Part shown: positions 13,726 to 54,400 of the stretch, one piece after another | Numbering within the stretch: the stretch's first letter is position 1 | Layout of the letters: each line of letters begins with the position of its first letter | NCBI RefSeq assembly: GCF_964340395.1 | Contig: NC_135556.1 | Span: forward strand, 19,999,642 to 20,063,641 | Length of the DNA stretch: 64,000 nt | DNA from: Glandiceps talaboti | Taxonomy: Eukaryota; Hemichordata; Enteropneusta; Spengelidae | Direction: 5' to 3' | The notes under the pieces: model-generated | Seen by the model: only the letters and a program-made list of their open reading frames with translations | Databases searched by the model: none | Told to the model about the DNA's origin: nothing | Position numbers and translations under genes: made by a program

Positions 13726-16700
13726 CTACTTCCTAGCACTTGCATACACTGTGGAGTACTTGCTTCTCTCCGACATGTTGCGTTCTTTCAGTTTTTTGTA
13801 CCACCTTGGAGGGTCTTGATTAGTCTGTGGACAAGAAATTGATATATTGATATCATTGATCGCTTAAAAATATAAATATTGAGAGTCTGTGCCTTCATCT
13901 ATTACGAAAAGATGAATTTCTAGCAAGTTGCACCAACTACAAAACATAGTTTGATATTCTCTCATTGTCGTACTTTCATGACAGATATGTATTTCAATTC
14001 AAAATTGAACTAACTAGCACACACACTATAAATAATGTTACAGACAGTGCCCCTTTAACAATCTCTATAACCCTTTAGAACACATCTTTTAGGAGAGTTC
14101 ATGTCAGACTTTTCTAATACTATGTTTCTCATGACATGACTGACCCTAAATTTCTTAAATTTTGCGAAATATTACAAAATTATCATTCTCTACTATAGAT
14201 TAGAAAAAAATGATAATAATAATAATAATAATAATAATCTTTATTTATACTGGATAGTTCTTTAAGCATATAAACACTTATCTCCCAAGAAGTACAGTGA
14301 GGGCCATATCACTAATTGTAAGATGGCGACACAACAAGCATGTATCTGAGCAAATATTATCTTTCATTGCTGAATTTCAGGACCTTTCATAAACAAATTG
14401 TTCAGTCTCATTCAGGCTTTAATTCTCATTTCTACATCATTCAGATTGTTCGAGTATGATTATGAATTGAAAGTATCACGTAAACATACACTTACTTCTT
14501 AGCAAAATCTTTTTAATTCTTAACTGACCCATCATTTCTATGTTGTTACGATCAGAAACATAGAATTAGCTAAGGCCACCATAATTGTAAAGCAGGGCTT
14601 AGTAATAAATACATCCTGAATAGTAAAATACTCACAAACAAAGTAGGTGAGGGTTTCTGACCAGTGCTATCATCATGCCCAACATGTTGTGGTAGGTCGC
14701 TATGTAAACCGCGGACACCCATTTTTCTAGATGACATTTCATGGGACAATCTATCACCATAGCGACGACTGGCGAGATTTAAAACAACTTGCTTCATAAC
14801 GGACATTTCCTACAATTTGAAAGAGAAGACAAAGACAGGGTTTATTCCTACTTGAGTGTTTGGTTGGTTGGTGACAAAAACAAGTTTTACTCCCAATTAG
14901 TAATTGGTTAGTGTCATTAAACTGAGAAATTGGAGAAATATGAATCTTTCAGATCCACTTCAAATTAAGAATTAAAAATTTATGTGTTAAAAACAGTTAT
15001 CTGGTAGAGCTATAGAAAAAGTTGGCGCTGAACAAAAGAATAATCCCCTAATCCTTATGGCTCCACTGATAACACTATAATATGAGAACCTGGGATTGAA
15101 CATAGACAGTGGAGGGGAAATTAAAACATACAGAACAATGTGGAACCATAGACTGCCTATGGTGGAATTACAGTCATTTTCTTATTTGCTAAAGCACTCT
15201 CTTAATGAAGCTATTTTGGCAATTTCGTCAGTGTAAAAATGATTGTGTAAAATGTACAAATTGTTAACTAGTATGAGTGGCGAAATGGTGCAGACTTCAG
15301 TCTCTGAGGGGATGGGAAAAAACTATCTGTACTTTGGACACAGCATTATCTTTATTCACATACAGTATTTAATACCATAAATACACCTTTCACTTAAATT
15401 GCACTTACTCCCCTGACTAATCGAAGATATTGTCATAACCAGGTTCCATGGCAATCGGTCCAGTGGTTTGACACAGACAGACAGACAGACAAACAGACAC
15501 AGAAACACACACAAACACTTTATCATACAAGTGGGACTATGGAATCTTAGTTTAGGTAGTGCCGAGGTTAAAAAAACCCCCATATAATTGGATAACATGG
15601 AAATGCCAGGTGAGAGTATAGAAATTTGTCAGTAAATAAATCTTTAGATATTAACAAACAAACCCACCTAAAGGTATTACTATTATAAGTGAGTGACATT
15701 CAATTCAAAACCAAAATAATCATCAAAACATCTAGCTACACATTGTGACCCTTTGATATCACTTTAAATTTCTAGCAGCTTTCAAGTAATTTCCCAAGAG
15801 TAATCGTGGTCAACAATTGGTGCCATGCATGATTATTTTAAAGGACATCATAAAAAAATAGTAATTTCACTTACTGCTGTGGAAAGTTTGATATTAGGCA
15901 ATAAACATTTGTGACTCTTTAATCTTTGCAGCAGTTCATTTCAACTGTTCCTTTTTCTAGGAATTTCTTTGTGTGAATTAAATTTTAATTTTCTGGGACT
16001 TTTAAATGATTTTCCATTAGTTTTAGAAGCATCTTTGACACAAAGACAAAGGTTAATAAACTGCACTGGGATGAAATACATGAATCATACCTCTCTTTGA
16101 TTGAGTAGCCTTTCTAGATCAGAAGACATTTGGTTTCTGTGTTTCACAAGATCTGTTCGCTCTTCATTTAATCTCCTGGATAAATGAAAAAATATTGTAC
16201 ACTATATCAACAATGTCCTTAAGTTATAAGGAAGTGAATATGAAATTCAAACTCTTAGATAAATCATCACTACCAAATATGGAAGTTAATCAGAAATTAT
16301 TCACTCTCTTGGATAAATCAGCACTGCCAAATATGGAAGTGAATATGAAATTATTCAAACTAAGATAAATCAACACTACCAAATATGGAAGTTAATCAGA
16401 AATTATTCACTCTCTTGGATAAATCAGCACTGCCAAATATGGAAGTGAATATGAAATTATTCAAACTAAGATAAATCAGCACTACCAATTGTTATGGAAG
16501 TTAATCAGAAATTATTCACTCTCTTGGATAAATCAGCACTGCCAAATATGGAAGTGAATATGAAATTATTCAAACTAAGATAAATCAACACTACCAAATA
16601 TGGAAGTTAATCAGAAATTATTCACTCTCTTGGATAAATCAGCACTGCCAAATATGGAAGTGAATATGAAATTATTCAAACTAAGATAAATCAGCACTAC

Positions 16701-18688
16701 CAAATATGGAAGTTAATCAGAAAGTATTCACTCTCTTGGATAAATCAGCACTGCCAAATATGGAAGTGAATATGAAATTATTCAAACTAAGATAAATCAA
16801 CACTACCAAATATGGAAGTTAATCAGAAATTATTCACTCTCTTGGATAAATCAGCACTGCTAAATATGGAAGTGAATATGAAATTATTTAAATTCTTATA
16901 TAAATCAGCACTACTAAATATGGGAATAAATCTGAAATTCATTTAAGTATTCAATCTCACTGGCGACTGAAATCGCCGAGTACACAGCGCAGACATACTG
17001 ACGTAACTGAGAATAAATAAATCCTTCAATGTCCATCATCATCACCCATCCTTATCACATATCTATCTGTGAAATATTTCTTTAACATCAATATTAGAGT
17101 ACTTTATGTCTACAGCTACCTTCACAGTCAATTTTAATTTTTTAATTTCAATTTTAATTTCATGACAACAACCTTTGTGTATATACTTCACAGTTCTTTT
17201 AACCTTTTTAATAATCTTGTCTCCCGAGAGAAGTCCAGTGATTGCAAACACTCATGGGTTCAGTGTTAGTGCAGGAGGAACATGTCACCCACCCACACAC
17301 ACAACACACTGGACTGCTGACACTACATGTATGGTCACTAGGGCCCATCCAAGCCAGATAGGTCCTACATGTAGTGCCCAATAAATATTCATGAATATAT
17401 TTTAACACCTTTTTATCTCGGATTATCCTTACTGACAGACATCTAGTTCCCCTGGAGTATTTGCAAAGGTAGTGATACTGGCACTTCCTTTTATTGTTTG
17501 AACCCTGTGCTGTTGCGGGTGGACACACTCCAAATAATTTACCAATGAGACAATGGGTGGGTATATAACAATAGATGGAAAAGCCGGACTGCTGGTGTTA
17601 ACCGATCATGTACGATAAGTGGAAAGCGGCATGAAAACACTTAATTTTAAATGAAAACAAATCCAAACAATTTTGCATATCATGTGTACATAGCAAAACT
17701 AGTCTACATTGTATACTGAGTGTGGGCAGTGGTTGGTATGAACTGGAGTGAAAACCAGCATTTCTTCAATAGAGAAAACCTGAGTGAGTCTTTTTACTTG
17801 CATGTACGGTGTGGCAAACTTAATCAAACCCTAACCAGGGCTCAAAGCTCACCCTCAGAGGTAAGAGTCTAGTAGTTTAACCACTTGGCCACTGACAACC
17901 AAAACATTTTGCCTGTATTTCAAAGATTGATTATGGCATCTACAAAGGATTCAACTATTTCAACTAACCCAATGTCTTCTTCCATAGCTGAGATGTGTTT
18001 CTTCAGTTTGTTGATCTGTGTATCTCTCATCTTAATGCTATCAATTAGATAATTATATGGTTGCTGTGCTTGGTCTAGCAGGTTGTTAGCATTGGCTAGC
18101 TGTAGTCAAGTAAAAACATGGAAAACACAAGTTAAACACTCTATACCAAATATTGATGATGTCCACTCCTAGCCAAAGGTTTTAGTACCCATTACTGAAT
18201 GTTCCATGAAGTCCAGAATCAATAAGCTTTCAAATTTTTTGAAGTCTACATTTTTTTCAAGAAATATAATGACAAGAAGTACAACATCTATATATAAACT
18301 AGTCTGTAAGATACAGACATTCGTGTCATGCTATCAGCCAGCACTTATCGTCTGTACCATTCTCATTCACTGAGAAATTCACACAGTGCTCGCGTTTGTA
18401 CCAGAACTCCTATGGTATTGTGTCAGATGTAGGTACAAAGCCTGGCGTGCACAGACCAAAAGAAAAAAGAAGAAGAAAAGAAACAACAATAAAAGTAGGA
18501 AACGGGGGTAATCATCGCACCAAGTTCACTACATTGCAATAATGCCTTACATGTGAAGCATACCAAGGAAACACTAGAAATAAAAGAAACTAGAAAGCAT
18601 ATTAAAACTGTACTGGATGTCATATTTTCCTATATTATGGTTTCTCTTTGTTTTAATTGTTGTTGCCATGATCAGTTAATGTGTGTGC

Positions 18689-18740
<52 letters not shown>

Positions 18741-21700
18741 GTGTGTGTGTGTGTGTGTGTGTCTGTCACAGTGTGTCTATGTGCTTTGAATGAAATCCAT
18801 TTTAATGGCAAGTAATCACTAACTTGGGTAGTTGGTCTACATATATAGGTTTAACAACATGTACATTTCTTCTCTTTAGACCTCACCTACATGTATTCAG
18901 ATAAAATCAACATCTTTTGTGGAGTCATAACAGGTGCATATATTTTCCTTAGTTTCCTTGCATATATTCTACATGTCTTTCAAGACAGTCGTTTCAAAAA
19001 TTTACAAAATTGCTATCGCCTTCATCAAAAAATCACTTATATATGAACTGATGAAAATGGATATTCAGAAACTAAACAGTGGCAATTCTATGTTTTGAAA
19101 ATGTTTTCAAATGTTTTCACAAAACCCTGTACCCTGGCTCCAAGGAGATAATATTTGAGTGAACAAATCAGAAAGAACTGTGGGTAAAATATTGAAAATT
19201 GCACTTGTCAAAGACAACAAAATATGAAAGTTTAGAAAATGACGCATTGAGTCCAAATAAACTATATATATATCACATGATAAGACTGGCCTTTTAGTCT
19301 TCAAAGTAATTTCCTGTTTGTACCTTCAAAGCAATTGCTAAAATTGTTTTGCTACTTCAGTAAACTGTTAGTGCAGTTAGAAATGTCACATGCTATCTAT
19401 TAGTTAGATTGAACTTTTTTTCCCCTGACAGTACAATGTACACTGCTTGCAGACTTTACACACACACAAGTTACTTATTGCTGTACTTCTGTTGAATGAA
19501 AATACACACAGTAGGCTATTAAAATCTAAACACAATTGGTAGCTTTCACCTTTTCACTACCTCGGTGGTTGGTGAAATAAACCTTAGAGTCAATACATGT
19601 CACATGCCAATCTCCTATGAAACCATTCCACTTCAGTTCACTTAGTTGTGCATTGCTTAATACCACAGTTTCATCTATTTTCTTTCACTCAGCGTAAACT
19701 CTAGACCACAAACACCCTGCTGTATGTGATCAACACAATCCATGCATCCATTCACCGACTTCACTTATCTTTAGAGTCTTGCAGCTAGATTTTAACGTCT
19801 TCAGAAATAACTTAATTGCTTACTAATTAGTTCTGTCTGCAGTACAGTTTGGTCCATTTACTTTCATCAATACCCTAGTGAATGCTATCAAAACAACACC
19901 ATTCAGACAACTTTGATTCCTGGAGATTCTTATCTTACTACAAGAAACCTTTAAAAGCACACTCATTATTGCTCAAACAGTCCAACAAATTGGAATAACG
20001 TTTTTTCAATACAAGTAAAACATAGTGCCCACATGTTATGTTACAGCAAACTGAATGATAACTTTGTGACCTACTTCCTCCGAGAGTTGCATCAACTTCT
20101 CTTTCTCCATTTCCACATCTTTCCTGAGTGATGTATTCATTCTTTCTAATTGCAGAACTCGCCTGGCCAGGTGTACACTGGTAAAAACAAAATTACACAC
20201 AGCAATCTTGTTATTACTGCCTAGAAGATTGTTTGAAGCACTGGGTCACAGGTTCTTCAATACATAGCCTATAGTGCATTTCATTTTCTCGCAAGACAGC
20301 CTCAATCACATTGCAGATGTGTGGGTGGTAACATTTGATGAAGGCCTATGGATGTCGAGCGCGCCATTCTATTTTCTAACATTTATATTTCTGAAAAGCA
20401 CAACATGTACATGTTCTATTTAATAAAACAGAATGATTAGTCAATTAAAACTACTATGTGAAACTGACGTGTAACTGATAGAGATTTCCTGTATTAATGA
20501 CTGCATATCAATCTTTTATTAATTGATGATTCATTTTGTAACAGTCTGAACAATACCATAACTGGTGTCAAAAAAATTATATTTTCATAAATATTACCTG
20601 TTACTCATTTTGTTTTTAATTGATGATTCATTTTGTAACAGTCAGAATAATAACATAACTGATGTCAAAAAATTCTATTTTCATAAATATTACCTGTTAC
20701 TCATTTTGTTTTGTCTCTCTGAAATTACCGTATTACGGTAACACTGGTTTAGTACAGTGGAACGACCGGCATAAGCAATAGCGCCAATGGCATTGTAGGG
20801 AATTGTAGATACAATGTATGTAGTACATTGTACTTTAAATTAATTAACTGTATATCTAACTGTCACTGATCTTTTGCAGTTTGCAGTTTTTGGCCAAAAC
20901 CAACATTTTCCAAATCTAAATTCCACATCATAACATTATCCAGGTCACATTGCACTGAATAACCTATTATCTTAACACCCTAGGAACATCGCTACTGACT
21001 ACATTATTTCACTCCTTTTTGCCAGTATTTGCTGAGTTTAATATTTTTGACAAAACCCTCAGAATTTTTATAAACTTAATTTTCATGCCAGGGATCATAT
21101 CATCTTGCACTCAATATTTTATTATCCACACATCCTTAGTAATATCCCTATCAAATATAAGATCTGTAGGCCAAGTATTTTAAAGTTAATTTTTTTATTT
21201 TATGTTTTTACTGAAAATCACTTTTTGACAGAATTCTCTTCCTTACTAGTTTATGCATGATCGATTGTTTGTCTAGTGTGATAACCTCCAAGCAGATGAG
21301 AGATAAAGCAAACTGTTGATGTAAGTGATCTCTCGCCAATTATATAAGATTAGGAGTGTTTTAATTTAGATTATTATTATTATTAGACTTTATTTAAACT
21401 CGATAGACTGTTGAGCCAAAGGCTCTTCTCACACAGTGTCGAGATAAAAATATACAATATATACATTAAAAATACTAAACCATTAAAACAAATACAAGGG
21501 TGAGTAAAATGGCAAAAGCCAGAAGAACAGCCAGGCGACTACTAAACTAACTGTTTTCTAAAAGATGACATTTACAATTACGTTTAAAAGACTGAAGAGT
21601 GGAGCATGATTTGATATCAATACTTAAATCATTCCAGGTTTTAACACCATTATATAAAAAACTCTTCCTAAAAAACTGTGTTCTATGTTTTGGGATGTAA

Positions 21701-24700
21701 AGTTCATCTCTGTCTGCTGCACGTGTGTTACGAGTGTGCACTTCTCGAATGCCTCTAAAATCATTCAGATAATTTGGAGCCAGGCTATTCTGGACTTTGT
21801 ACATTAAAACAGCTTCATTGTAAATGATACGTTTTCTGAAAGGAAGCCATTGAAGAGATTCAAATAAAACAGTACTAGGTGTATTAAAATTAGTGTCTAA
21901 AAGCACTCTTGCAACAGCTTTCTGAAGTCTTTCAATGTGGAGTAAAAGCGTGTTTGAACAATGACCCCATATGTTAGAACAGTAGTCAAAGTGGGGTAGT
22001 ATAAAACAATTGTAAAAAGTAATCTTTGCTCTCTGATTTAAAAAAGTTCTAATACGTTTAAGTTGATGAAGTTTAAAAGCAACTTTGCTACATACAGTGT
22101 TCACTTGTTTTTCCCAAGTCAGTGTATCATCAATATTTACACCTAAAAGCTTTTCATTTGAGATACATTCTAGCTTGGTAGTGCTAGATAAGAAGAGAAG
22201 AATGGACAAGGCGTCTTTATTTAGTCAAGAAAAGAGAGAATTACATACAGCTTCAGACTGCTAGTCGTCTGAGATATAGCTGAGAGCAAAGTAACCAGGG
22301 AAAGAAAAAGAAATAGTTTTAAAACTCAATGAGTGAATTTATCGATATCACACACAAAATAAGTTATATTGCACCACAAAAATTGATCATTCAATCAATC
22401 AATCATTCACCCAAATAATAAATCAATCAATAAATCAACCGATCAATCAATCAATCAATTACATGCTCACTGCCCCCCTGTGGTTATCTGTGCAATAAGC
22501 GATCATTTCACTTGCTGTGGGCGTGGTCTTGTTGCACCCAAGGCATATTTGCATACACTTCTTGAATGTTTGTTCACTTGTCTATGAATCCCTGTTGTTA
22601 TCTTTGTGAAATACACAATTGCTTGGCTGTTGCTATGGGCGTGATCATGGTTGCTAGGGACATTTGCATACATTTTTTAAATGTTTACTCACCTGCCTAC
22701 CAGATGATGTTATTTTAGCAAAATATACTGGTATTTGATTGTTGCTAAGGGTGTTGTCATGGTTGCTAGGGCCAATTGTGTCAAAATGTTTAGAACAAAT
22801 CTGCAGAATAACATTCCTAGAAACATCTCACCAAATTTCAGTCTCATTGACCAAGTACTTTTTGAGATATAAATTTTTTGACCAAAATTCACATTTTACA
22901 CCTAATTTTCATATCACTGATGAGATCATTATATACTTTAATATTTTTTCATCTATACACCCAAATGCATCCCCATTAAATTTCAGCCCAATCTGCTCAG
23001 TAGTTTTGGAAATAAAGATTTTGACCAAGAAGACACATTTTTAGCCCTAATTTGCAAATTATTGATGGGATCATGTCATGAACAAATCTTAATCTACATA
23101 CCCCTAAGAATGTTCCCACCAAATTTCAGACAAATCAGCAATCTGCCAAGTAGTTTTTTTGAGTTTAAGTTTTTTGACCAAAAATGACCCAAAGCACACA
23201 CCTGAGATGTGATCATTTTGCTTTGAACAATTTCCAAACTAGGCTATAGTATCTGACTTCTTTGTAACTTAGCAGAGATTGAGTTAACTTCTGGATCATC
23301 ATCTTGCTATTAACAAGAACAAGGTCTTGATTATCACAAGTTCCCTAAAGATTATAGTGCCCTCAGTGGTAGTCATGAATTACTGCATCTAGCCACCACT
23401 GTCCATATACGAGTATACAGTACATTTACATATTAATCGAACATTTGCCTAATGTTCTTTCAAAACAATGAAAGTGGGACATCAACTTGACCAAGCTTCA
23501 TATTATATTTCTGAGTATGGTCTTATAATACTGGAAATGATACTGAACCTCTTTACAGGTAGTTACCATCTGGCATCAAAATTATATTGAAGCAGTTACA
23601 TGAACTCAGCAAACTTGATGCATGCAACTCTCCATCCACATGTATGTCTGCTACCAGTGCTCACATGTACAGTATTTATCACTGGTCCTCTTTGTAAAAC
23701 AAAATACTGGCAAAAGCCCCGCTGTCTAATAGATTTCCTTAGAGTTTTCTCATTGATGTTGTTGCTATATTAGCAGTCTAAGATTACCATGGAGTTTTCT
23801 TATTGATGTTGTTGCTATATTAGCTGTCTAAGATTACCATGGAGTTTGCTCATTGATATTGTTGCTATATTAACAGTCTAAGATTACCATGGAGTTTTCT
23901 CATTGATGTTGTTGCTATATTAGCAGTCTAAGATTACCATGGAGTTTTCTCATTGATGTTGTTGCTATATTAGCAGTCTAAGATTACCATGGAGTTTGCT
24001 CATTGATATTGTTGCTATATTAGCAGTCTAAGATTACCATGGAGTTTTCTCATTGATGTTGTTGCTATATTAGCAGTCTAAGATTACCATGGAGTTTTCT
24101 CATTGATGTTGTTGCTATATTAGCAGTCTAAGATTACCATGGAGTTTGCTCATTGATATTGTTGCTATATTAGCTGTCTAAGATTACCATGGAGTTTTCT
24201 CATTGATGTTGTTGCTATATTAGCAGTCTAAGATTACCATGGAGTTTTCTCATTGATGTTGTTGCTACATTAACGGTCTAAGATTACCATGGAGTTTTCT
24301 CATTGATGTTGTTGCTACATTAGCAGTCTAAGATTACCATGGAGTTTTCTCATTGATATTGTTACTACATTAGCAGTCTAAGATTACCATGGAGTTTTCT
24401 CATTGATGTTGTTGCTATATTAGCAGTCTAAGATTACCATGGAGTTTTCTCATTGATGTTGTTGCTACATTAGCAGTCTAAGATTACCATGGAGTTTTCT
24501 CATTGATGTTGTTGCTACATTAGCAGTCTAAGATTACCATGGAGTTTTCTCATTGATGTTGTTACTACATTAACGGTCTAAGATTACCATGGAGTTTGCT
24601 CATTGATATTGTTGCTATATTAGCTGTCTAAGATTACCATGGAGTTTTCTCATTGATGTTGTTGCTATATTAGCAGTCTAAGATTACCATGGAGTTTTCT

Positions 24701-27700
24701 CATTGATGTTGTTGCTACATTAGCAGTCTAAGATTACCATGGAGTTTTCTCATTGATGTTGTTACTACATTAACGGTCTAAGATTACCATGGAGTTTGCT
24801 CATTGATGTTGTTACTACATTAACGGTCTAAGATTACCATGGAGTTTTCTCATTGATGTTGTTGCTATATTAGCAGTCTAAGATTACCATGGAGTTTTCT
24901 CATTGATGTTGTTGCTATATTAGCAGTCTAAGATTACCATGGAGTTTTCTCATTGATGTTGTTGCTATATTAGCAGTCTAAGATTACCATGGAGTTTGCT
25001 CATTGATATTGTTGCTATATTAGCTGTCTAAGATTACCATGGAGTTTTCTCATTGATATTGTTGCTATATTAGCAGTCTAAGATTACCATGGAGTTTTCT
25101 CATTGATGTTGTTGCTATATTAGCAGTCTAAGATTACCATGGAGTTTTCTCATTGATGTTGTTGCTACATTAGCAGTCTAAGATTACCATGGAGTTTTCT
25201 CATTGATGTTGTTACTACATTAACGGTCTAAGATTACCATGGAGTTTGCTCATTGATGTTGTTACTACATTAACGGTCTAAGATTACCATGGAGTTTTCT
25301 CATTGATGTTGTTGCTATATTAGCAGTCTAAGATTACCATGGAGTTTTCTCATTGATGTTGTTGCTACATTAGCTGTCTAAGATTACCATGGAGTTTTCT
25401 CATTGATGTTGTTACTACATTAGCAGTCTAAGATTACCATGGAGTTTTCTTATTGATGTTGTTACTACATTAGCTGTCTAAGATTACCATGGAGTTTGCT
25501 CATTGATATTGTTGCTATATTAGCAGTCTACAATTACCATGGAGTTTTCTCATTTATGAGGTTGCTATTTAAGCAGTCTAAGATTACATGGAGTTTTATC
25601 ATTGATGTTGTTGCTACATTAGCGGTCTAAGATTACCATGGAGTTTTCTCATTTATGAGGTTGCTATAATAGCTACCTTACCTTTGTTTCAGTCTCCTCT
25701 TTGAAGTTGTTGGTATGTTGGCTCCATAGCCATATGAAAACAACACTCGCTCTGCTTCATTCTCATCTGTCACTGAAATGAAGATAGAAATGATATATTA
25801 CAACATGACAAATAATTCAGTAGCTGGCAAACCAAGTTTCATTTCTGTATCATCATACAAGGTATCATCCTATTTTACGAATTTTTCAATTTTTCTCCCA
25901 TTGGTCAGGACCTTTGATGTGCAAAGACCACAGAATATGACAGGTAGCTGTATGCATGCCAGGAATAACAAGAACAGCATGCATACATGATATCAGATCC
26001 CATAACATGACTGGCATGCATACATACTATCAGATCAAATAACATAACATGAGAGATATGCATACATGATATCAGATCACAACATGAGAGGTATGTATAC
26101 ATCATATCAGATCACATAGCATGACTGGCATGCATACATAATATCAGATCCCATTAACATGACTGGCATGCATACACAATATCAGCTCACATAACATGAC
26201 TGGCATGTGTACATAATATAGATCCTATAACATGAGAGGTATGCACACATTATATTAGATCACATAACAATGTGACAGGCATGCATACATGATATAGATC
26301 CTATAACATGAGAGGTATGTATACATAATATTGACTTTAACACACTCACTATCAGCAGCTTGCATGACAACATCGTCTAATTCTTGTTCTAATTTCTCAT
26401 AAATGTTCAATTTTGACTTCAGTTCTGTGTTTTCTGTCTCCAGTTCTGTTGTTCTCCTCTGGGTAGTGTTTTGCAATGAATAGAACTCTTCAGTTAAAAC
26501 CTGAAAAAGACAAAAAAAAAAAAGACAACTTATCACGTTTCAGATTAATTCATGTTATATGGTTGACTTTCTGCGATGAATATCACATTACTATAATGCT
26601 CTACATTATTCTCTGTATACAGGGAACAAAAGCAAGGCTGATTTTTATCAAAACTGCATTTCTCTATGAGCAGGGACCAATAAAAGTTATTTTCACTAAT
26701 TCTGCATTGCATGACCTCTCTAAAATAATTTTTGAAAAATTCACAAATGTAACTTAAAAAGTGTCCAGGTCGCTACAAAATATTAGTTTCTGTATCTAAT
26801 ACAGAAAGAAGTCAATTTACTTCACTGGTGCCTCAGCATGGTAAAGCCATATATATGTCTGTTAATTCTGTACCACAGAGGAAATGATTTCACTAAGATT
26901 TGTTATATTACCTGAGGCATATCATTCTTTTACAGCATATTTTGCACAATGGAAAGACTTCTGAGCACTAACACTAACTCTTAGCATGTGCCTAGGAAAT
27001 ATAACCTTTGCCCCAACCTATTTTCTCAGTTAAAAACCATTTTCTAAAATTGGGGTCACTGTATGATATATTTTTAAATAGAGGTCAGAACGATATAAAA
27101 ATTTAGTCATTTTTATGATTTATTTTTAAATAGAGGTCAGAACGATATAAAAATTTAGTCATTTAGGAATCCAATATGGCCGATGAACAGTGTTGCTGAG
27201 CGAATAACAGCTTGGCAATTTCCTTGAATACAAGATGATGTATGCCAAAATATCTTTCTTTTTTTTTAATTCAAAGGACAAGTAACAAGCTTTCATATGC
27301 AGAGACTTAACTTTCATTTGAATTTGCTTTGAAGCGCATTTTAATAAGAAAGTTAACTAGCAGTACAAATTTCAAAAAAAAAAAATTAGATTGATGATGC
27401 ACTGAAACTCCATTAATTTGTATAAAGTTGTTAATCTAGGCACACTAATCATATTAATTTGCACGTTTGTGTTTATATTTATCAAAAGAAACAACAAACA
27501 CTATACCATACTTGGGCCAGTTATTGTCTTTCAACAGATAATATGGATTATATACCCTGGTCATTCTACATTGCAACAACCCATGTCTACGTCACTGGTT
27601 TTTCAGGGCTTGAAATATGAGTCAAAATGTTACAAATTACCATTATTTTTACAAATTTTTCATAAATTATGCTGAGGGTATAATTGTATTATTCCCCAAT

Positions 27701-33700: not shown

Positions 33701-35787
33701 GTAAGAGCTTTGTATGCCACATCCAAATAGTTATATTTCTTCTGTATGTCCAAAAAATCATGTTCCATGTCATCCCTTTCCCTGAATGGAAAAATATACA
33801 TAGAATACTTGGTCAGTTTAGATAATGTGTACACTATGGTCAAGATAAATTTATTAAACATGTACATGATGTACTGGTAATATTTTTATTTAAAGATTAC
33901 CAGGGCTGATAATGTTTTTATTGAAATTGTCAGGGCTGGTAATGTTTTTATTTAAACTAGTACCAGGGCTGGTAATGTTTCTATTTAAATTACCATGGCT
34001 GGTATTATGTTTTTATTTAAATTACCATGGCTGGTATTATGTTTTTATTTAAACTAGTACCAGGGCTGGTAATGTTTCTGTTTACATGTAAACTACCATG
34101 TACAAGGGCTGGTATGAAAATGTTCTTATTTAAACTACCAGGGTTGGTAATGTTTTCATTCTCACTACTGACCTTTTGACCCTATCATAGTTCTCTGTCC
34201 TGTAGGTATCTTGTTGAATCATTGACTTGGTATCAGCCAGTTCTAAAGTTAATCTTTGTGCTCGCACCTCTAGATCACTTCTACACTTCCTTTCCTGCTC
34301 ATAATCCTGTAGAATACAATGAGGACAATGAATACAAATTGTACACATTGTTTGAAATGTAAAAGTAAGCCATACTTGTGACATGTGCAGTCTCTATATA
34401 GCATGTTGTGACATGTTTGTAGCTGTTACTACAACTGTTTGTAATGATATCATGTAATACTTCTCCATCACAAAATGCTAGTAAAACGACACATTACACT
34501 GTGATATTTAAAAAAAAAAGACACATAATTTCATGATTTAGACACAAGGCAGAAAAAGTTTAAATATTTTGAGTGCCTCTGTTTATTTGGGTGTACATGC
34601 AACATGTTACACTACCAACAATAATCAATGTTATGTTACAAAATGTACTTGTATGTGACTGCACTATCAAGTATTACACTGGCATAGTATGCATGTACTT
34701 ACGAGTAAATGTACCAATTCCTCATTACTGACTAGAATTGATTTCAATACCACCAACATTTAATAATATACTACATTTAGAAATGAATGTTTGCATTATC
34801 TGAAGAGGGAAATGGTACTGGTAGTGGTAGTCATAATTTGAATTCAACAAATCTCTCACCTCTTTCGTTGTCTTATAGTCATCTCTGTATTGATTTAATT
34901 CTTGTTCCAGGATTCTACTTTTGGTTTTGAGGTCTTCTGTCTGCATTTTGAGGGGGTTAACAGCTTCGTAGAAGCTCATCTGTAATGTACACATGTAAGT
35001 TACGTCAAACAAAACATATCAAACAACGGGTAGTAAACTTACAAAACTTGCAGCATTTTATTACAACAATACTATTATCATGCATGCCAAGTATTGGTAG
35101 ACTAGCAACTTACACCGTTCAAAAACGTATACAGATTTCCAGTTATCAAATCATAATATGATATAGAAAACATATTAAAATGTAACGATAATTGCAGCAT
35201 AATAAACTTCTCAGTAAAAATAAGATTTTTGATAAACTGAAACTTACAGACACATACTCCTTCAAAGTCAACTGATCCTCACTTTTAGCTTTCAGTTCAA
35301 AGTACTCGTTTTCGGATATATCCAGGTCCTTGAGACTTCTTCGTATATCTCCAGATTTGCGTTGTAATTCACTATTTGTTTTCTCGAGTTGCTGTTGCCT
35401 TTTCGTAATGGCTTCAAGCTCTGTCTGTAGATGGTGTTGACTTCGTCTCGAATCTTCATCGTGCAATTTCAACTGTGATTCAAGTTTAGCCCTCAGTAAT
35501 TGTTTCTCACGAAATTCATCAGCTAGCTTTTCTTCCAGTTCTTCAACTTTGCTGTTGTGTTCGACTTTCAAATTGTCGATGCTCAGATTTTTCTGTGACA
35601 ACTCGATCTTCAGTAGTTGCAAATCGTGCAAATGTTGTTTACGTTCGATCAACTGCTTCGTGATTTTTGCGCTTTTCTTATGGTCAAGATCGCTGTCATC
35701 GGCGGACAAATCGTCTGTAGCTATAGAAGTACTAATGTCCTCAGAGCTCAATTCACTGAAGGTCATAGATAAGTCTCTCCGAGCCAT
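13726..35787 (-). CDS. PIBF1: PIBF1 / CEP90, centriolar-satellite coiled-coil protein (15 exons)
   Basis: Complete gene. Coding exons in transcript order: 35248-35787, 34860-34979, 34173-34306, 33673-33781, 32808-32989, 29704-29829, 29204-29302, 28453-28618, 26350-26500, 25682-25772, 20075-20177, 17969-18099, 16091-16175, 14636-14809, 13726-13824. All introns are GT/AG and the sum is 2310 nt, 769 residues plus stop (human 757). Recognised by long collinear matches to vertebrate PIBF1: [65 protein letters not shown], and a C-terminal DPPRWYKK resembling the human PEWSKKQK end. It is almost wholly coiled coil after an acidic, Ser-rich N-terminus. In vertebrates the protein (CEP90) acts at centriolar satellites and distal appendages in ciliogenesis; that role here is inferred. 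The start at MARRDLSM was chosen by homology because the frame stays open upstream. It is head-to-head with GSTCD. Confidence 0.97.
14215..14290 (-). repeat. LINE/SINE 3' end with (AAT)n tail
   Basis: An (AAT)n run (14211-14238) is followed by CTTTATTTATACTGGATAG. The same arrangement, (ATT)n then CTTTATTTAAACTCGATAG, marks the 3' end of the LINE at 21369-22215, so this is probably a short 3' fragment of the same or a related family in PIBF1 intron 14. Confidence 0.5.
16229..16935. repeat. Dimeric ~106-bp minisatellite in PIBF1 intron 12
   Basis: About seven copies of a 106-bp higher-order unit made of two related ~52-54-bp halves. One half carries AAGTTAATCAGAAATTATTC plus CTCTCTTGGATAAATCAG, the other AAGTGAATATGAAATTATTC plus AACTAAGATAAATCAAC. 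The array begins about 55 bp from the acceptor of PIBF1 exon 13. The half-unit word TTGGATAAATCAG resembles the acceptor region (CCTGGATAAATGAA on the plus strand). Confidence 0.95.
17828..17899 (-). repeat. tRNA-derived SINE head (remnant)
   Basis: The minus strand reads GTGGCCAAGTGGTTAAAC, an A-box of the tRNA-Leu/Ser kind, and about 35 bp later GAGCTTTGAGCCCTGG, close to a B-box. Acceptor-stem pairing is poor and no intact cloverleaf can be drawn, so it reads as the 5' head of an old tRNA-derived SINE. It lies in PIBF1 intron 12. Confidence 0.5.
18680..18779. repeat. (TG)n microsatellite
   Basis: About 45 TG dinucleotides with a short TATG interruption, in PIBF1 intron 11. Open frames across it (VCVCVCV) are artefacts. 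Confidence 0.95.
20515..20712. repeat. Two-copy ~100-bp tandem duplication
   Basis: Two adjacent copies of a segment beginning ATTGATGATTCATTTTGTAA and ending TTACCTGTTACTCATTTTGT, differing at a few positions, in PIBF1 intron 10. No coding content. Confidence 0.85.
21369..22215 (-). pseudogene. 5'-truncated LINE, reverse-transcriptase C-terminal region
   Basis: An uninterrupted 220-codon minus-strand frame (21547-22209) carries the post-polymerase C-terminal domain of a non-LTR retrotransposon: [17 protein letters not shown], then [27 protein letters not shown], and a terminal [11 protein letters not shown]. These are hallmarks of the CR1/Jockey/L2 group. The element ends about 180 bp past its stop in an (ATT)n tail at 21369-21384, giving a normal 3' end. 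The reverse-transcriptase core and endonuclease are missing through 5' truncation. The intact frame suggests a fairly young insertion, antisense-neutral in PIBF1 intron 10 (same strand as PIBF1). Confidence 0.85.
22500..23190. repeat. Dispersed repeat with degenerate internal units
   Basis: Three diverged units of about 125-135 bp repeat the series CCAAATTTCAG, then a TAGTTTTTGAG-like word, then TTTTTTGACCAAAA, then 'aatttgcatat...gatgagatcat'. Upstream, GTTGCTATGGGCGTG/GGTTGCTAGGG and TTTGCATACA words occur three times (22510-22770). Similar but weaker units occur at about 20960-21240. This is a composite non-coding repeat in PIBF1 intron 10; the ORF across it has no family similarity. Confidence 0.6.
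23721..25675. repeat. 50-bp minisatellite, ~39 copies, in PIBF1 intron 10
   Basis: About 39 consecutive 50-bp units built from CATTGATGTTGTTGCTATAT, TAGCAGTCTAAGATTACCAT and GGAGTTTTCT, with phase-locked variants (GTTGCTACAT, GTTACTACAT, TAACGG, GGAGTTTGCT). GGAGTTTGCT recurs every third unit in the first 450 bp. The last decayed units run straight into the donor of PIBF1 exon 10 at 25681. Frames across it are interrupted, and no protein is implied. Confidence 0.98.
25925..26335. repeat. ~45-55-bp minisatellite in PIBF1 intron 9
   Basis: About eight to nine units combining ATAACATGACTGGCATGCAT or ATAACATGAGAGGTATG with ACATAATATCAGATC. The array stops about 15 bp from the donor of PIBF1 exon 9 at 26349. 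Short open frames through it (MYTYLSC-like) are artefacts of the period. Confidence 0.9.
27064..27165. repeat. Perfect ~52-bp tandem duplication
   Basis: Two adjacent, nearly identical copies containing TTTTTAAATAGAGGTCAGAA and CGATATAAAAATTTAGTCAT, in PIBF1 intron 8. The identity suggests a recent event. Confidence 0.9.
27687..27838. mobile_element. MITE, ~150 bp, copy 1
   Basis: About 50-bp terminal inverted repeats. The left reads ATTATTCCCCAATATTTGTC, CTTCATTCAG and CTGACCTAAGGG inward, and the right end gives the matching complement. A second copy lies at 36762-36894 in the PIBF1/GSTCD spacer. No coding capacity, in PIBF1 intron 8. Confidence 0.75.
28850..29160. repeat. Dispersed repeat with (AAT)n end, shared with 37676-37801
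   Basis: The segment starts with AATAATAACGATAACGATGA, followed by TATTTATAAAGTGCTTATT (minus strand: an AAGCACTTTATAAATA tail seen in other SINE/LINE 3' ends). It then carries TAGTCTGTAATGTA, CCATGATG, GCCCTCACACA and GACGGAATGACA, which also occur in order at 37676-37801. Non-coding repeat in PIBF1 intron 7. Confidence 0.6.
29911..30009. mobile_element. Short foldback element / hairpin, ~99 bp
   Basis: About 40-bp arms, GTTCCTGACGACCGTATTCC plus GATTTTACACTATG on the left and their near-perfect complement on the right, enclose a loop of about 20 nt. The transcript of either strand would form a long hairpin. Most likely a miniature transposon, in PIBF1 intron 5. Confidence 0.75.
30309..30418. 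mobile_element. Short foldback element, ~110 bp
   Basis: Ends AATCTTTACGGAGCAGATAT plus GGGTTT and the complement of AATCTTTACAGACTGGATAT plus GGGTTT pair over about 26 bp. Probable MITE remnant in PIBF1 intron 5, 300 bp from the previous hairpin and unrelated to it. Confidence 0.6.
31588..31665 (+). repeat. SINE/LINE 3'-tail fragment (GCGCTATATAAAT type)
   Basis: GTGAAGTGCCTATGAGCACT is followed by GGCGCTATATAAATG and an irregular ATT-rich end. Related ends occur at 39715-39790, 41200-41262 and, inverted, 28850-28890. Tail fragment only, in PIBF1 intron 5. Confidence 0.5.
33893..34160. repeat. ~40-60-bp minisatellite in PIBF1 intron 3
   Basis: Six or seven units of CCAGGGCTGGTAATGTTTTT plus ATTTAAACTA, with variants CCATGGCTGGTATTATG. 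The array reaches to within about 15 bp of the donor of PIBF1 exon 3 at 34172. Confidence 0.9.
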
Positions 35788-40900: not shown

Positions 40901-43900
40901 TCTACCACTTAGTGTTATCTTTTAGAACACCATTTGCAACTTTCAGAAACATCAAATAGGTGTTTTTGTTGTTGTACAATCTTTAATGTTTGAACACATT
41001 TTAAAATAACTTGAAAACTGACATAACTAATAAAATTAGTCCAGAAATGACTGGATATTAAAATATGGCAAATCAAGAAAATTTTTTTTTAAAAATTACA
41101 TGTAATGGAAATCATTGAAATATGTAACAAATCATTCATACAAAATTTATACATAGTGGCATTACACATGTTGCAAGTAGCAGAAGTATTGGTTCAGCAC
41201 CATAGAACGTTACGTCATATTAGAGTTTGCGCTATACAAATTCTTTTGATTGATTGATTAATTAAACTATTGACTTTGTTATTCAGGAAAACAATCAAGA
41301 CTTCTTTGAGAAGGAGAGTGCCAGAGTTGCTGGATAGGCTGCAGTCTAAAGGAATTGAACCACACTTTGGAAAACATCCAAGTGACGATGTAGAGTTAAA
41401 ATGGAACGACTTTCCAGAAGATGTTAGACCTGTACAAGGTAAGATTTGGATTCAAGTTGTTATTGTGTTATTATTTGAGACAGCAAGGCAAGTTATAGAT
41501 TCTTATTCAGCTATCCCCCCCCCCCCCCCCCCCTGTCACTGTCACCAGCTGTTCCTATTGTGTCACTGATGAAAATAACTTTAATAGATTTTAGAACTGT
41601 GACAAATACTGCTTGGCAAAACCAGCCTCACTTTTGTTCATCTTTCATAGTACTAGAAATATGATCCAGAACTTTTTGAGCTCACAATTTTTTGATGGTT
41701 TGTCAATGAACAGGTGGTGTAACTGAATTACGATGTCAACGAAAATGTCAGCAAGTTGAAAACATTGTATCTGCTGTGTTGACAATAGCCAAGAATGGAG
41801 ACACCATTGTAGACTTCTGTTGTGGCTCAGTAAGTAATACTTTATTTGTTGATTTATACTATGAAGTGTGAATTTACAATTACTGAGTATTCCTTTTCAG
41901 TATTACAGGAGTGTCAAAGCAAGTAACTGAACATCTTTGGTATCAATTTGTTGGTAGCATGATCTCTATACTCTACTCAAAAGTGTCAGGTATATGTAAC
42001 CATTGCGTTCATATCTCATGACATGTTGGCATCATACCTCCTACAGGTATATGTATATCTGACTATTTCACTAATTGACCCAATTACAGGGACATGTTGG
42101 TATTACCTTAGCATACCTCCTGCCCAAGTGTCAGGTATATCTGGTTGAGAACAAAGTGGAGTCTCTAGACAGAGCCCAGAGTCGAATACATAACATACAG
42201 TTGAAGAATATAACGTTACATCACGGTAACCTTGACTACTTTCAAGGATCTTTTGATATAGGGGTAAGTATTCCCACATTTATCCCAACTCGATAATATT
42301 CCAATTTGTAAAATGTCCTATAATGATGATGTGTATAATTTTAGATACAGTCTCAGTTGAATGAAACTGTTAGAGGTGCATTGCAGAAAGTAGAAGATCT
42401 CAAAAAGTCAGCAGAAATATATAATTGCATAAAGTCAAAGCAGTCTGTGAGATGCTGAAAAATGGAGAACGTTGATGGTTGTGTTTGCTGGTTGCTGGCT
42501 CTTGTCTGTACTCCTGCTATGAAACAGATACATATGTAGAGAGTATACCATATTGATAATAGTAAGATAGAATATTGAAGAGTTGAGAAAAGGAAAAAAT
42601 ATTTAAGCTTAAAATTTATAGATATTGCATGCACCAAAAGAGTTTTTTGTATTTGTTGACATACCTTTTATACTAAAGATAAGGGGTACACCAGCAACAT
42701 CTAACACTTTGCCATGGCAACTCACATGATACTTGTTTCACTGCCATGTTGCTTTGACATCTTGTCTATTGTTTATACACGTAAATTGATGCAGCTTTCA
42801 TCACATCACTGTTGCAACTGGTCTAGTGGTGTAGACATTGATAGATTTTGTTATACTTTGTCAGCTAGTCTGTTTATGTATTGAAATATAATTACTAGTA
42901 TATTAAATCACTATGGCAACTAGTGAGAGATATTGTATTGTCTTATTGCTATGGCTGCTGGTAAACTTTGTAGATATCGATATTGTCATATCGCCATGGC
43001 AACTGGTTATTGTTGAGATATTGGCATATTGCTATGGCAGCTGGTATATTTTGTAGATATTGATATTGTCATCGCTATGGCATCTTGTCTGTGGACTAGA
43101 TACCAAAGTCATATTGCTATGGTAACTGATAGTGTCATCACTATAGCAACTGGATGGTCTGTGTAGATATTAATATTAGATATGGTGATATTGTTTCAGG
43201 TATCTCTTCATGCATGTGGAGTAGCAACTGACATGGTACTTGATAAATGTATTTCTTGCCATGCTGCTTTTGTCTCAGCACCCTGTTGCTATGGTAGCAT
43301 ACACAGTACTCATGTTATTACGTATCCAAGGAGTCCGAAATTTCAACAGGTACTCTCAGAGGAGGTAGGTATCACAGTTGACATGTTGATGTAAGTCGTT
43401 GAGGGAATTATGTTAGTTTCATTTTGTATACTAAAAAGTAGGGTGGCATTTCTGATAACTTACCTGATCTTGCTGCATACAATGTTTGGGACTTCCAGTA
43501 CTGGTGTTTACACTATCTGTACTACAGGGTGACTATATCTGCACAACGCTATCACCCACTTGTGTAATGTACATCATCCAACAACAATAGTTTTAGTTTG
43601 TGGCTATCTTAGAAAGATGAAAGTACGGTTTCCAAAGAAGTAATAATATGAGGAAGGACTAAGGTGTTCTTCATAAATTAATTCCTCATCACTGGTATTT
43701 ATATGTGTGTGTCTGTGTGTGTGTCATATCTTATCATAGGAGTATGTGTTATTGGGGCATGCAGCAGACCAAACACCATGGCAGTTTGAAACACCAATAG
43801 CAAGGCAAGGTATGTCATATATGTATTTATTACGAGCAATATATGAACACCTGTTTGGTATGAAATCAGATTCCAGATGACATTCATGATATAATGAAAA

Positions 43901-51454: not shown

Positions 51455-54400
51455 TTAATGTTCATTGTTCCTCTCACTTTGAGTGGCTTCAACAAATTGT
51501 TTCATGAGAATATCAGCTGCTAGGCCAGGGGTCATGACCCCTTTGGCAACTTTATCTTCCAATGGTTGAATTTCAGGTTTGACGCTTGGATGACTTTTGA
51601 ACATGACTATAATGCGATCTTGTATATGGTTCCACATCCAGATACGATGCTGTTTTGCTCGTCTTTTCATCATTTCACCGCTACCAACTATAATACGGCG
51701 AAATTCACACATATTGTCCCATATTTCTGGAATGCCTTCATTCTTTGTGGATGACACCCTTAGCACCTGGAAATAAAATATCCCTTCATGTTATTCATAG
51801 AGGTTACACTAGAGTTACAACCCCGAAGGGGGATTGTGCCAACGAGCTCTGTGCATGTATGTGTGTGTGCCTGCATGTGTGTGTCCATTTGTCAATCTGT
51901 AATACCTAATTTCTCAGACATGCAATATCCAATTTCATTCAAACCTGGTGTAAGGTAACAAATCATATCAAGTAGAAAATGGGAAACATGACATACACAG
52001 AAGTAATGCTTGCATGAGTATTGGACTGATTATTCAATGTTTTTGCTATAGTTTGTGAAAGTCACGAACAGAATGGGGCAATTCAGTAAAAATTCCATTA
52101 CTTTCTTTTGTGTCGTTATTGCAGTTGGGAACCTCAGGAAAAATACAGTGCATATTCAATACACTGCTTTTGCATGCAATGCCATCGAAATCATTAAAGT
52201 TTTTACAGGTTGATAGTTTGTGTGGTTAGAACAATAAAAGTTTACTGTATATTGTAACTCTCAATATTGAAAGCATTGGAAGTATAGCTACAAAAGGAAA
52301 TCTTTCCTTCTTGTTTGCTACAAATGTATTCCTTGTAACAAAATCTAACTATCAAGTTACTGGTATCACAACTGGTGGAGCAAAAGTGACATCCACCAGC
52401 TTTAGTAACACAGGTTGGCATCTGTCAATCACACCAAGTGTAGCAAACCTACATTTACCAATCGCAGCTAGTGTAACAAACGTGCATTCACCAATCACAC
52501 CTTGTGTCACAAGTACAGTAGCTAACCTATCTTCACCAATCACATCTTGTGTAGCAAACCTGTATTCACCAATCACACCTTGTGGTACAGTAGCTAACCT
52601 ATATTCACCAATCACATCTTGAGTTGCAAACCTATATTCACCAATCAAATCTTGCATTGCAAACCTACATTCACTAATATCGTGGTAGTTTAACAAGACA
52701 TACACATACCTTAGGGGTCCAATTAACAGATTTCTTTCTTAGCAGTTTAACAGCACTTATGTACTCCATTTGGATTCGTTTGGCTGGTATGTAGAGGTCT
52801 CCATCTGCTTTATTGACAGCTATAAGGTCTGCCATTTCAACGATTCCTTTCTTGATACCTTGCAGCTCATCACCAGCAGCTGGTGGTATCAGTAAAACAA
52901 ACATGTCTACCATATCAGCCACAGCATACTCAGACTGACCAACACCTACAATACAAACATGTCTACCATATCAGTTACAGCATACTCAGTCTGACCAACA
53001 CATACATACAATCAACTACCATATCAGCTACATCATACATTGTCATATACCACACTTACCAACTAATAAATTCCATTATTATAGACCACCCTTACCAACA
53101 AACACATTCCATTGATACAGACCACACTTACCAACAAATAAATTCCATTGTATAGAACAAACTAAGACTTACCAACTAATGCATTCCATTCTTATAGACC
53201 ACACTTACCTACAAACATGTTCCATTGTTATATAACTTGTAGACTACACATACCAACTAATATATTCCATTGTTACAGACCACAATTACCAACTAATGTA
53301 TAATTCCACTGTTGTACACCACTTCGCAACTAATTCATTCCATTATTATAGACCACACTTACCAACTACAACATTCCATAGTTATAGACAACTTACCAAC
53401 TAACACATTCCATTACTATAGACCACACTTACCAACTGTTTCTACAAGAACAGTATCATAGCCAGCAGCTTCACATAACAAGATAGCTTCGTTTGTGCTT
53501 CTAGTTACTCCACCTAATGTACCACTTGTAGGTGATGGTCTAATGTAGGCATTCTTATCACGGGATAGCTCTATCATGCGGGTTTTATCACCAAGAAGAG
53601 ATCCTGATAAATACAAACACAACATACATGTATCATATACCTGTACTACCCATTCTGAAATCCTCATGGCTTTATCACTATACAGCTATACTCACTCACA
53701 CACAACAACCAGTACATACAGTTTATGATTTTACACTCCAGTTAACAGCTATGTTCACTCACAAACAACTAGTACATACATTTGATGATTTTAGATTCCA
53801 GTAAACAGCTATGTTCACTCGCAAACAGTAACTGCTAGTATATACAGTTTACATCCTTACAATTAGATATGCACATTCACAAACATGACCAGTACATATA
53901 ATTTGCACTATAAAACAGCAACTTGGTTTTTGTTTGCACAGACTGACAACACTAACTCTACAGTTTAGATTCTATTACATGACATTTTTGTAACATTTTT
54001 GCTCACAATAATAAATAGTACATTTTGCTCATTAGCCCACAGTAACTTTGTTCCATATTCAATTTTTTTAATGGCACACTTTTCTTACCTCCAGTGGACG
54101 ATGAAGAAGGATCCACAGCTAATACTGCCACCCTGTGTCCTTTTGATGTTAAATATTTACCAAAACATTCTATGAAGGATGATTTCCCTGCACCGGGAGG
54201 ACCTGTTAAACCTAAAAAAAAAAAAATAATCCTATGATATATTATCAGTTTAAAATTAAATCCTTCATAAGAGTGGTGGGTTTCTTCACCACCAAATTTT
54301 TTATTGTCCATGTGGATAGTATTTATGTCGTTTTTTTATCCTGGCACATACAGCTTTTATTTACTGAAACAAGCAATCAGTTATACAACTGTTGTATATC

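Follow-up and report, generated by a model that had tools for sequence, protein, structure and literature searches.

How is the first of many near-identical donor sites chosen at the head of an intron, and how could an intron come to begin with such a series? This question is raised by intron 3 of a gene in a 64-kb stretch of the Glandiceps talaboti genome (the window; C9:19999642-20063641). The gene encodes a 404-residue protein in five exons (window 55039-51455, minus strand) and is MMAA, as an earlier note on this DNA had named it: the protein core matches human MMAA (2www; E 3.4e-125), and two MeaB models match the protein above their cut-offs in a profile search. The intron phases are 1, 1, 1 and 0. 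Intron 3 (52946..53432; 487 nt, phase 1, GT...AG) lies between exon 3 (53433..53603; 171 nt, ending in GAAACAGTTG and identified by its protein match to 2www) and exon 4 (52710..52945; 236 nt), all on the minus strand.

The border of exon 1 follows the first base of the glycine codon in R-A-G-L-T-G-P-P, which we take, from the 2www alignment and the residue numbering (R145), to be the codon and phase of human c.439. The exon lengths of 123, 171 and 236 nt presumably fit the further human borders at c.562, c.733 and c.969, and the human border at the codon of intron 3 is presumably that of the disease mutation c.733+1G>A. On this agreement of lengths and phases with human MMAA, intron 3 is probably an old intron. 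Passages of PMC6718108 place a human MMAA donor after c.439.

The donor side of the intron is a tandem array (53038..53437, minus strand; period 36, 10.8 copies by Tandem Repeats Finder (TRF)) that reaches 5 nt into exon 3. Counted from the donor, where the 36-bp unit consensus begins, the first 395 bases of the intron form 11 units of 36, 34, 36, 37, 36, 45, 36, 41, 36, 36 and 22 bp, the last one cut. They carry 11 donor-like sites, with first bases at 53432 (the true donor) and at 53396, 53362, 53326, 53289, 53253, 53208, 53172, 53131, 53095 and, last, 53059 (decoys 1–10). GT is present in 10 of the 11 units (9 of the 10 decoys) and GTAAG in 8 (7 of the decoys); decoy 3 (53326) is dead, with CG in place of GT. 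GGTAAG, which the earlier note said most copies keep, is indeed kept in 8 of the 11 units. The true donor reads TTG/GTAAGT, and the same nine bases recur in five of the ten decoys (1, 2, 7, 8 and 10); by a hand-typed splice matrix, decoy 6 (TAG/GTAAGT) outscores the true donor, and decoys 9, 5 and 4 score lower. The units are 62–94% alike, with insertions (mean 0.79 over the ten full units), a pattern typical of minisatellites. This divergence argues that no single unit was copied by software; tandem arrays are error-prone in assemblies and the length of the array in this one assembly could be wrong, yet a repeat collapsed or expanded during assembly is a highly improbable source of the array.

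The junction of exon 3 matches the units beyond chance. Its donor edge aligns inside the intron over 32 bases with one mismatch (5 exon and 27 intron bases), and the donor-edge score was reached by none of 300 dinucleotide shuffles of intron 3 (p 1/301, for a similar edge); when the edges were shuffled instead, the donor and acceptor edges of intron 3 both gave p 0.0025, the floor of the test. The exon bases shared are AGTTG, not the ACAGTTG that had been described as part of the unit together with GTAAGT, and the last 40 bases of exon 3 alone have no copy in intron 3 (score 13, p 0.997). No edge of MMAA introns 1, 2 and 4 fell below p 0.05 in the intron-shuffle test. GGTAAG occurs eight times in intron 3, junction included, and 1, 1 and 0 times in introns 1, 2 and 4. 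Its total in the window (27, both strands) is not unusual, being reached in 8 of 100 shuffles; what stands out is the clustering, with eight copies within 400 bases and more than one at no other listed place.

Beyond the donor array, the rest of intron 3 is almost wholly made of tandem copies of the start of exon 4 (TRF 52897-53038, period 56, 2.6 copies), the half of the structure that the earlier reading missed. The 56 nt next to exon 4 (52946..53001, minus strand) comprise a 49-nt copy, identical to the first 49 nt of exon 4 at 46 positions, and then the bases ATTGTAG, whose final AG is the live acceptor. Immediately upstream of this copy, the counterpart of the live TGTAG reads TGTAT; the AG is lost and the acceptor of the copy is dead. 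A partial further copy (53002..53043, minus strand, borders approximate) adjoins the donor array, leaving almost no unique sequence in the intron. None of 300 dinucleotide shuffles matched the acceptor edge as well (p 1/301). The statement that intron 3 is built of about ten copies of its own donor therefore holds for an array of 11 donor-like sites, but these do not fill the intron, whose acceptor end is a second array.

Exon 4 sequence inside intron 3 is what would be expected if the intron had been newly gained when a piece of exon with an AGGT in it was duplicated in tandem. Against such a gain, the exon 1 border agrees with human c.439 in codon and phase and the exon lengths and phases presumably fit human MMAA, and we reject it as very improbable. 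Intron 3 resembles introns gained by tandem duplication across a boundary in that it contains former exon sequence; it differs in that an apparently old intron has been rebuilt, without a new intron position. Published accounts describe this route of gain in potato RdRp and suggest it for the globins of lancelets (the latter in passages of PMC3087553).

Neither does a dispersed element, an introner or a transposon-borne intron explain the locus; we reject these for want of dispersed copies. In the genome search (590 Mb, 47 contigs), the stretch 53000-53500 had one scored match, itself (the search skips very common words), and in BLAST of intron 3 and its units against the window all 46 hits lay inside 52900-53450.

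We therefore propose, with a rough probability of 0.78, that intron 3 is a boundary-spanning minisatellite (a 'mirage'), in which the edges of the intron were duplicated in tandem and the decoys were carried along as passengers. The anatomy of the two arrays, the identities, the in-frame stops described below and the lost AG are read directly from the DNA; the course of events would have been as follows. A segment holding the donor of exon 3 (about 5 exon and 31 intron bases) would have been duplicated in tandem, and separately a segment holding the acceptor of exon 4 (about 49 exon and 7 intron bases). Replication slippage or unequal crossing-over may then have spread both arrays until they met, displacing older intron sequence. 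Points against this reading are that the donor side shares only 5 bases with the exon and that arrays are frequent in the introns of the window, where, as described below, random GT sites fall in them no less than donors do.

The outermost splice pair is most likely still used, by proximal donor choice, since no donor but the first is adjacent to a true exon (exon definition); the one full upstream acceptor copy cannot be taken first, because its AG is lost. Use of a later donor would, as had been predicted, add intron sequence to the mRNA, and all ten later sites then give the same first in-frame stop, a TAG at intron bases 15-17 in the first unit. Transcripts spliced at a decoy would thus be truncated and probably destroyed.

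That every decoy leads to a stop, and that 9 of 10 keep GT and 7 of 10 GTAAG, could also mean that the decoys are kept by selection, for example because they draw U1 snRNP to the intron along its length, or because they act as poison sites that tune the level of MMAA by way of transcripts with a stop; by the hand-typed matrix, five decoys score the same as the true donor and one scores higher. The conservation of the units argues otherwise: in nine full decoy units, mismatches fell on 10 of 81 positions of the donor 9-mer and on 31 of 243 positions of the rest (Fisher p 1.0), a count in which one intact donor was misaligned and scored as partly mismatched, lowering the apparent conservation. 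With no excess conservation of the 9-mer over other unit positions, selection on the decoys was rejected, and we give it little credence. RNA structure that hides the decoys was likewise rejected: intron 3 folds no better than its shuffles (z -1.06; 14 of 100 shuffles fold as well), which again lends selection no support. Since conservation is no higher at the decoy sites than in the remainder of the unit, we read the decoys as passengers of slippage or unequal crossing-over.

A different question is whether duplication at this locus was drawn to the edges at all. An ordinary intronic minisatellite that grew by chance up to the exon edge would differ from the boundary-spanning minisatellite proposed here only in denying any edge preference, and the other genes of the window bear on it. 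Both ends are annotated for 21 introns (MMAA 4, PIBF1-like 10, GSTCD-like 3, ADCK2-like 4), in an annotation that may have missed exons within long introns; outside MMAA, exons were called with a home-made scorer that uses hand-typed splice matrices, and by reading by eye. The names PIBF1, GSTCD and ADCK2 are presumptive. Six pieces were searched against Pfam: ABC1 kinase was above cut-off in both ADCK2-like pieces, one of two GSTCD-like pieces had two methyltransferase hits below cut-off and the other none, and neither PIBF1-like piece had a match.

Twelve larger arrays were chosen by hand from 54 TRF rows, leaving out short, low-scoring and simple-repeat rows. Nine of them overlap 8 of the 21 introns, as ordinary minisatellites might, and start 0, 8, 18, 31, 88, 261, 394, 664 and 1,288 nt from the donor, the one at 394 nt being the acceptor-side array of MMAA intron 3. 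In 6 of the 21 introns, the intron's own donor edge was the best match among all 21 edges, against 1 expected (binomial p 0.0003), which argues for an edge preference, as does the copying of both edges of intron 3 with 49 exon bases on the acceptor side; own acceptor edges ranked first in 1 of 21. In the edge-shuffle test, 8 donor edges and 3 acceptor edges, out of 21 each, had p values below 0.1. These tests took in 21 of 23 donors, GST43.3k and ADCK63.9k being without an annotated next exon.

Single arrays, all on the minus strand, show such donor-edge copies weakly. In a 391-nt PIBF1-like intron, the donor edge GGTCAGTAG matches a unit of a 32-bp array (33874..34172) over 29 aligned columns (p 0.0025). 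A 50-bp array in another intron of this PIBF1-like coiled-coil gene (23731..25681; about 39 copies, 94% matches) starts 8 nt past the donor, and a gapped alignment extends its first unit as far as the donor (p 0.042). Weak donor-edge likeness was found for a 37-bp PIBF1-like array (25965..26349) that starts 18 nt past the donor (p 0.072) and for a 33-bp array in MMAA intron 4 (52426..52678) that starts 31 nt past it (p 0.067; rank 5 of 21). Elsewhere in the window, the surroundings of a 45-bp GSTCD-like array (42928-43199) are similar to the sequence that leads to the following acceptor, TTTCAG/GTATCTC (p 0.055), a nested tandem array at 16226-16939 has periods of 54, 106 and 215 (TRF), and the minus strand of 21550-22224 holds an open frame of 225 residues that presumably resembles part of a non-LTR reverse transcriptase.

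Comparison with random sites speaks against an edge hotspot. At a score of 26, 2 of 23 donors lay in arrays against 21% of 1,206 random GT sites, so that donors showed no excess over random GT sites, which were in arrays no less often; nor did acceptors show an excess over random AG sites, the acceptor ADCK57.7k, which lies within an ORF, having been dropped before counting. Scores of 24 in this test are meaningless, as query and target overlap by 12 bases.

Across the genome, the pattern of three GGTAAGT motifs at 20-45-base spacing gave 9,352 matches, and the same search with the reversed motif TGAATGG gave 4,234. These raw counts prove little on enrichment of the donor motif, because other 7-mers of the same composition gave 2,293 (GGATATG) and 7,911 (GTATAGG) matches too; that control 7-mers also form arrays, and that GTATAGG comes near the count of GGTAAGT, fits an ordinary minisatellite. 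Among the matches listed for C1 0-5.05 Mb there were 8 GGTAAGT arrays against 5 for TGAATGG (p 0.58), no clear excess, and against 1 for GGATATG (p 0.04), which has 3 arrays over the full 35.9 Mb of C1 (p 6e-6); GTATAGG matches were not resolved into arrays. With these mixed controls, a genome-wide enrichment of donor-edge arrays is suggestive.

One of the eight C1 arrays (L032-L039) starts at a confirmed coding donor, that of an LRRK2 exon (L035; E 4.5e-8); a later unit of this array shares the 9 bases that precede the donor. The arrays L036 and L037 each come after an open frame that has an acceptor, and 37 and 23 bases, respectively, from the sequence upstream of the first donor recur in their units; neither had a Pfam match above cut-off, and the L037 peptide had no match in the PDB. 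The other five are without a shown exon, although an open frame is present at L039 and a 24-nt candidate at L038. L039 (C1:5044700-5049500) holds 108 GGTAAG copies over 3 kb after the open reading frame, with a spacing of mostly 27-28 bp among the matches listed. An array found with the TGAATGG control (C1:1664769-1665250) has a unit of about 51 bp, with the donor-like CAGGTAAGG in some copies.

The idea, raised in the earlier note, of a duplication process focused on exon edges thus gains from the copied acceptor edge and from own donors ranking first in 6 of 21 introns, and loses from the lack of a donor excess over random GT and from the mixed genome controls. We regard an ordinary minisatellite as unlikely while keeping it as a serious alternative; that duplication in this genome favours exon-intron edges that are transcribed, and donors most of all, that introns thus grow from their edges inward by repeated copying of splice sites, and that intron 3 is an extreme case in which the arrays met, is a tentative and rather doubtful proposal.

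Structures of this kind are already described, and MMAA intron 3 is a real and clean case of a splice-edge minisatellite. In lancelets, minisatellite-like tandem duplications of exon-intron boundaries were named mirages in Adh3 and the globins BflGb6 and BflGb9, with units of 10-72 bp in Adh3 and 150-160 bp in globin (passages of PMC3087553), and are also reported for PGBD5 and TnC (passages of PMC3902484); according to the same passages, they affect 5' and 3' boundaries, many copies keep AG or GT, and mirages are recognized by regular mRNA splicing despite the copies and by length instability between haplotypes or somatic cells. As in lancelets, the MMAA units span the boundary (5 exon and 27 intron bases on the donor side, 49 exon bases on the acceptor side) and both the 5' and the 3' edge are hit. 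The unit lengths of 36 and 56 bp agree with a mirage; splice signals are kept on the donor side (GT in 10 and GTAAG in 8 of 11 units), and the acceptor-side copy has lost its AG. Unlike the lancelet cases, both edges of one intron are arrayed with almost no other sequence left, and the donor-side exon share is only 5 nt. The GFP family (PF01353), of which lancelets have several members, gave 0 matches in the genome searched here, as it did in the control genomes; molluscan haemocyanin families likewise gave none, in a search lacking a positive control.

Human genes offer two further comparisons. A minisatellite with multiple splice donor sites was reportedly found in human IFI6 (6-16) by Turri et al. 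in 1995. In IFI6, two downstream repeat units are used as donors, giving three mRNA species (excerpts of PMC4526556). Repeat units next to the MMAA exon likewise carry donor sites, here predicted from sequence; unlike the used downstream donors that those excerpts describe, each MMAA decoy is predicted to add an in-frame stop. Internal tandem repeats also lie at exon-intron boundaries in human segmental duplications (passages of PMC2812944), and there, as here, expansion of a boundary repeat changes gene structure. The human repeats as presented in these passages are variable, belong to recent primate paralogs and alter exons or make introns, whereas the MMAA stretch is found once in the genome. 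A literature search of titles and abstract starts found no such array outside lancelets and human genes, which is no proof of absence.

What makes intron 3 remarkable is that both edges of one probably old intron would have multiplied until they met, and that five decoys equal the true donor. The locus offers a natural test of donor choice: the exon is followed by ten decoys, of which five repeat the nine bases of the true donor exactly, so that position and exon context must decide the choice. At the acceptor end the situation is mirrored, the only full copy upstream being dead. A donor bias, should it hold genome-wide, would provide a measurable way for introns to be altered in size and content, starting at their edges.
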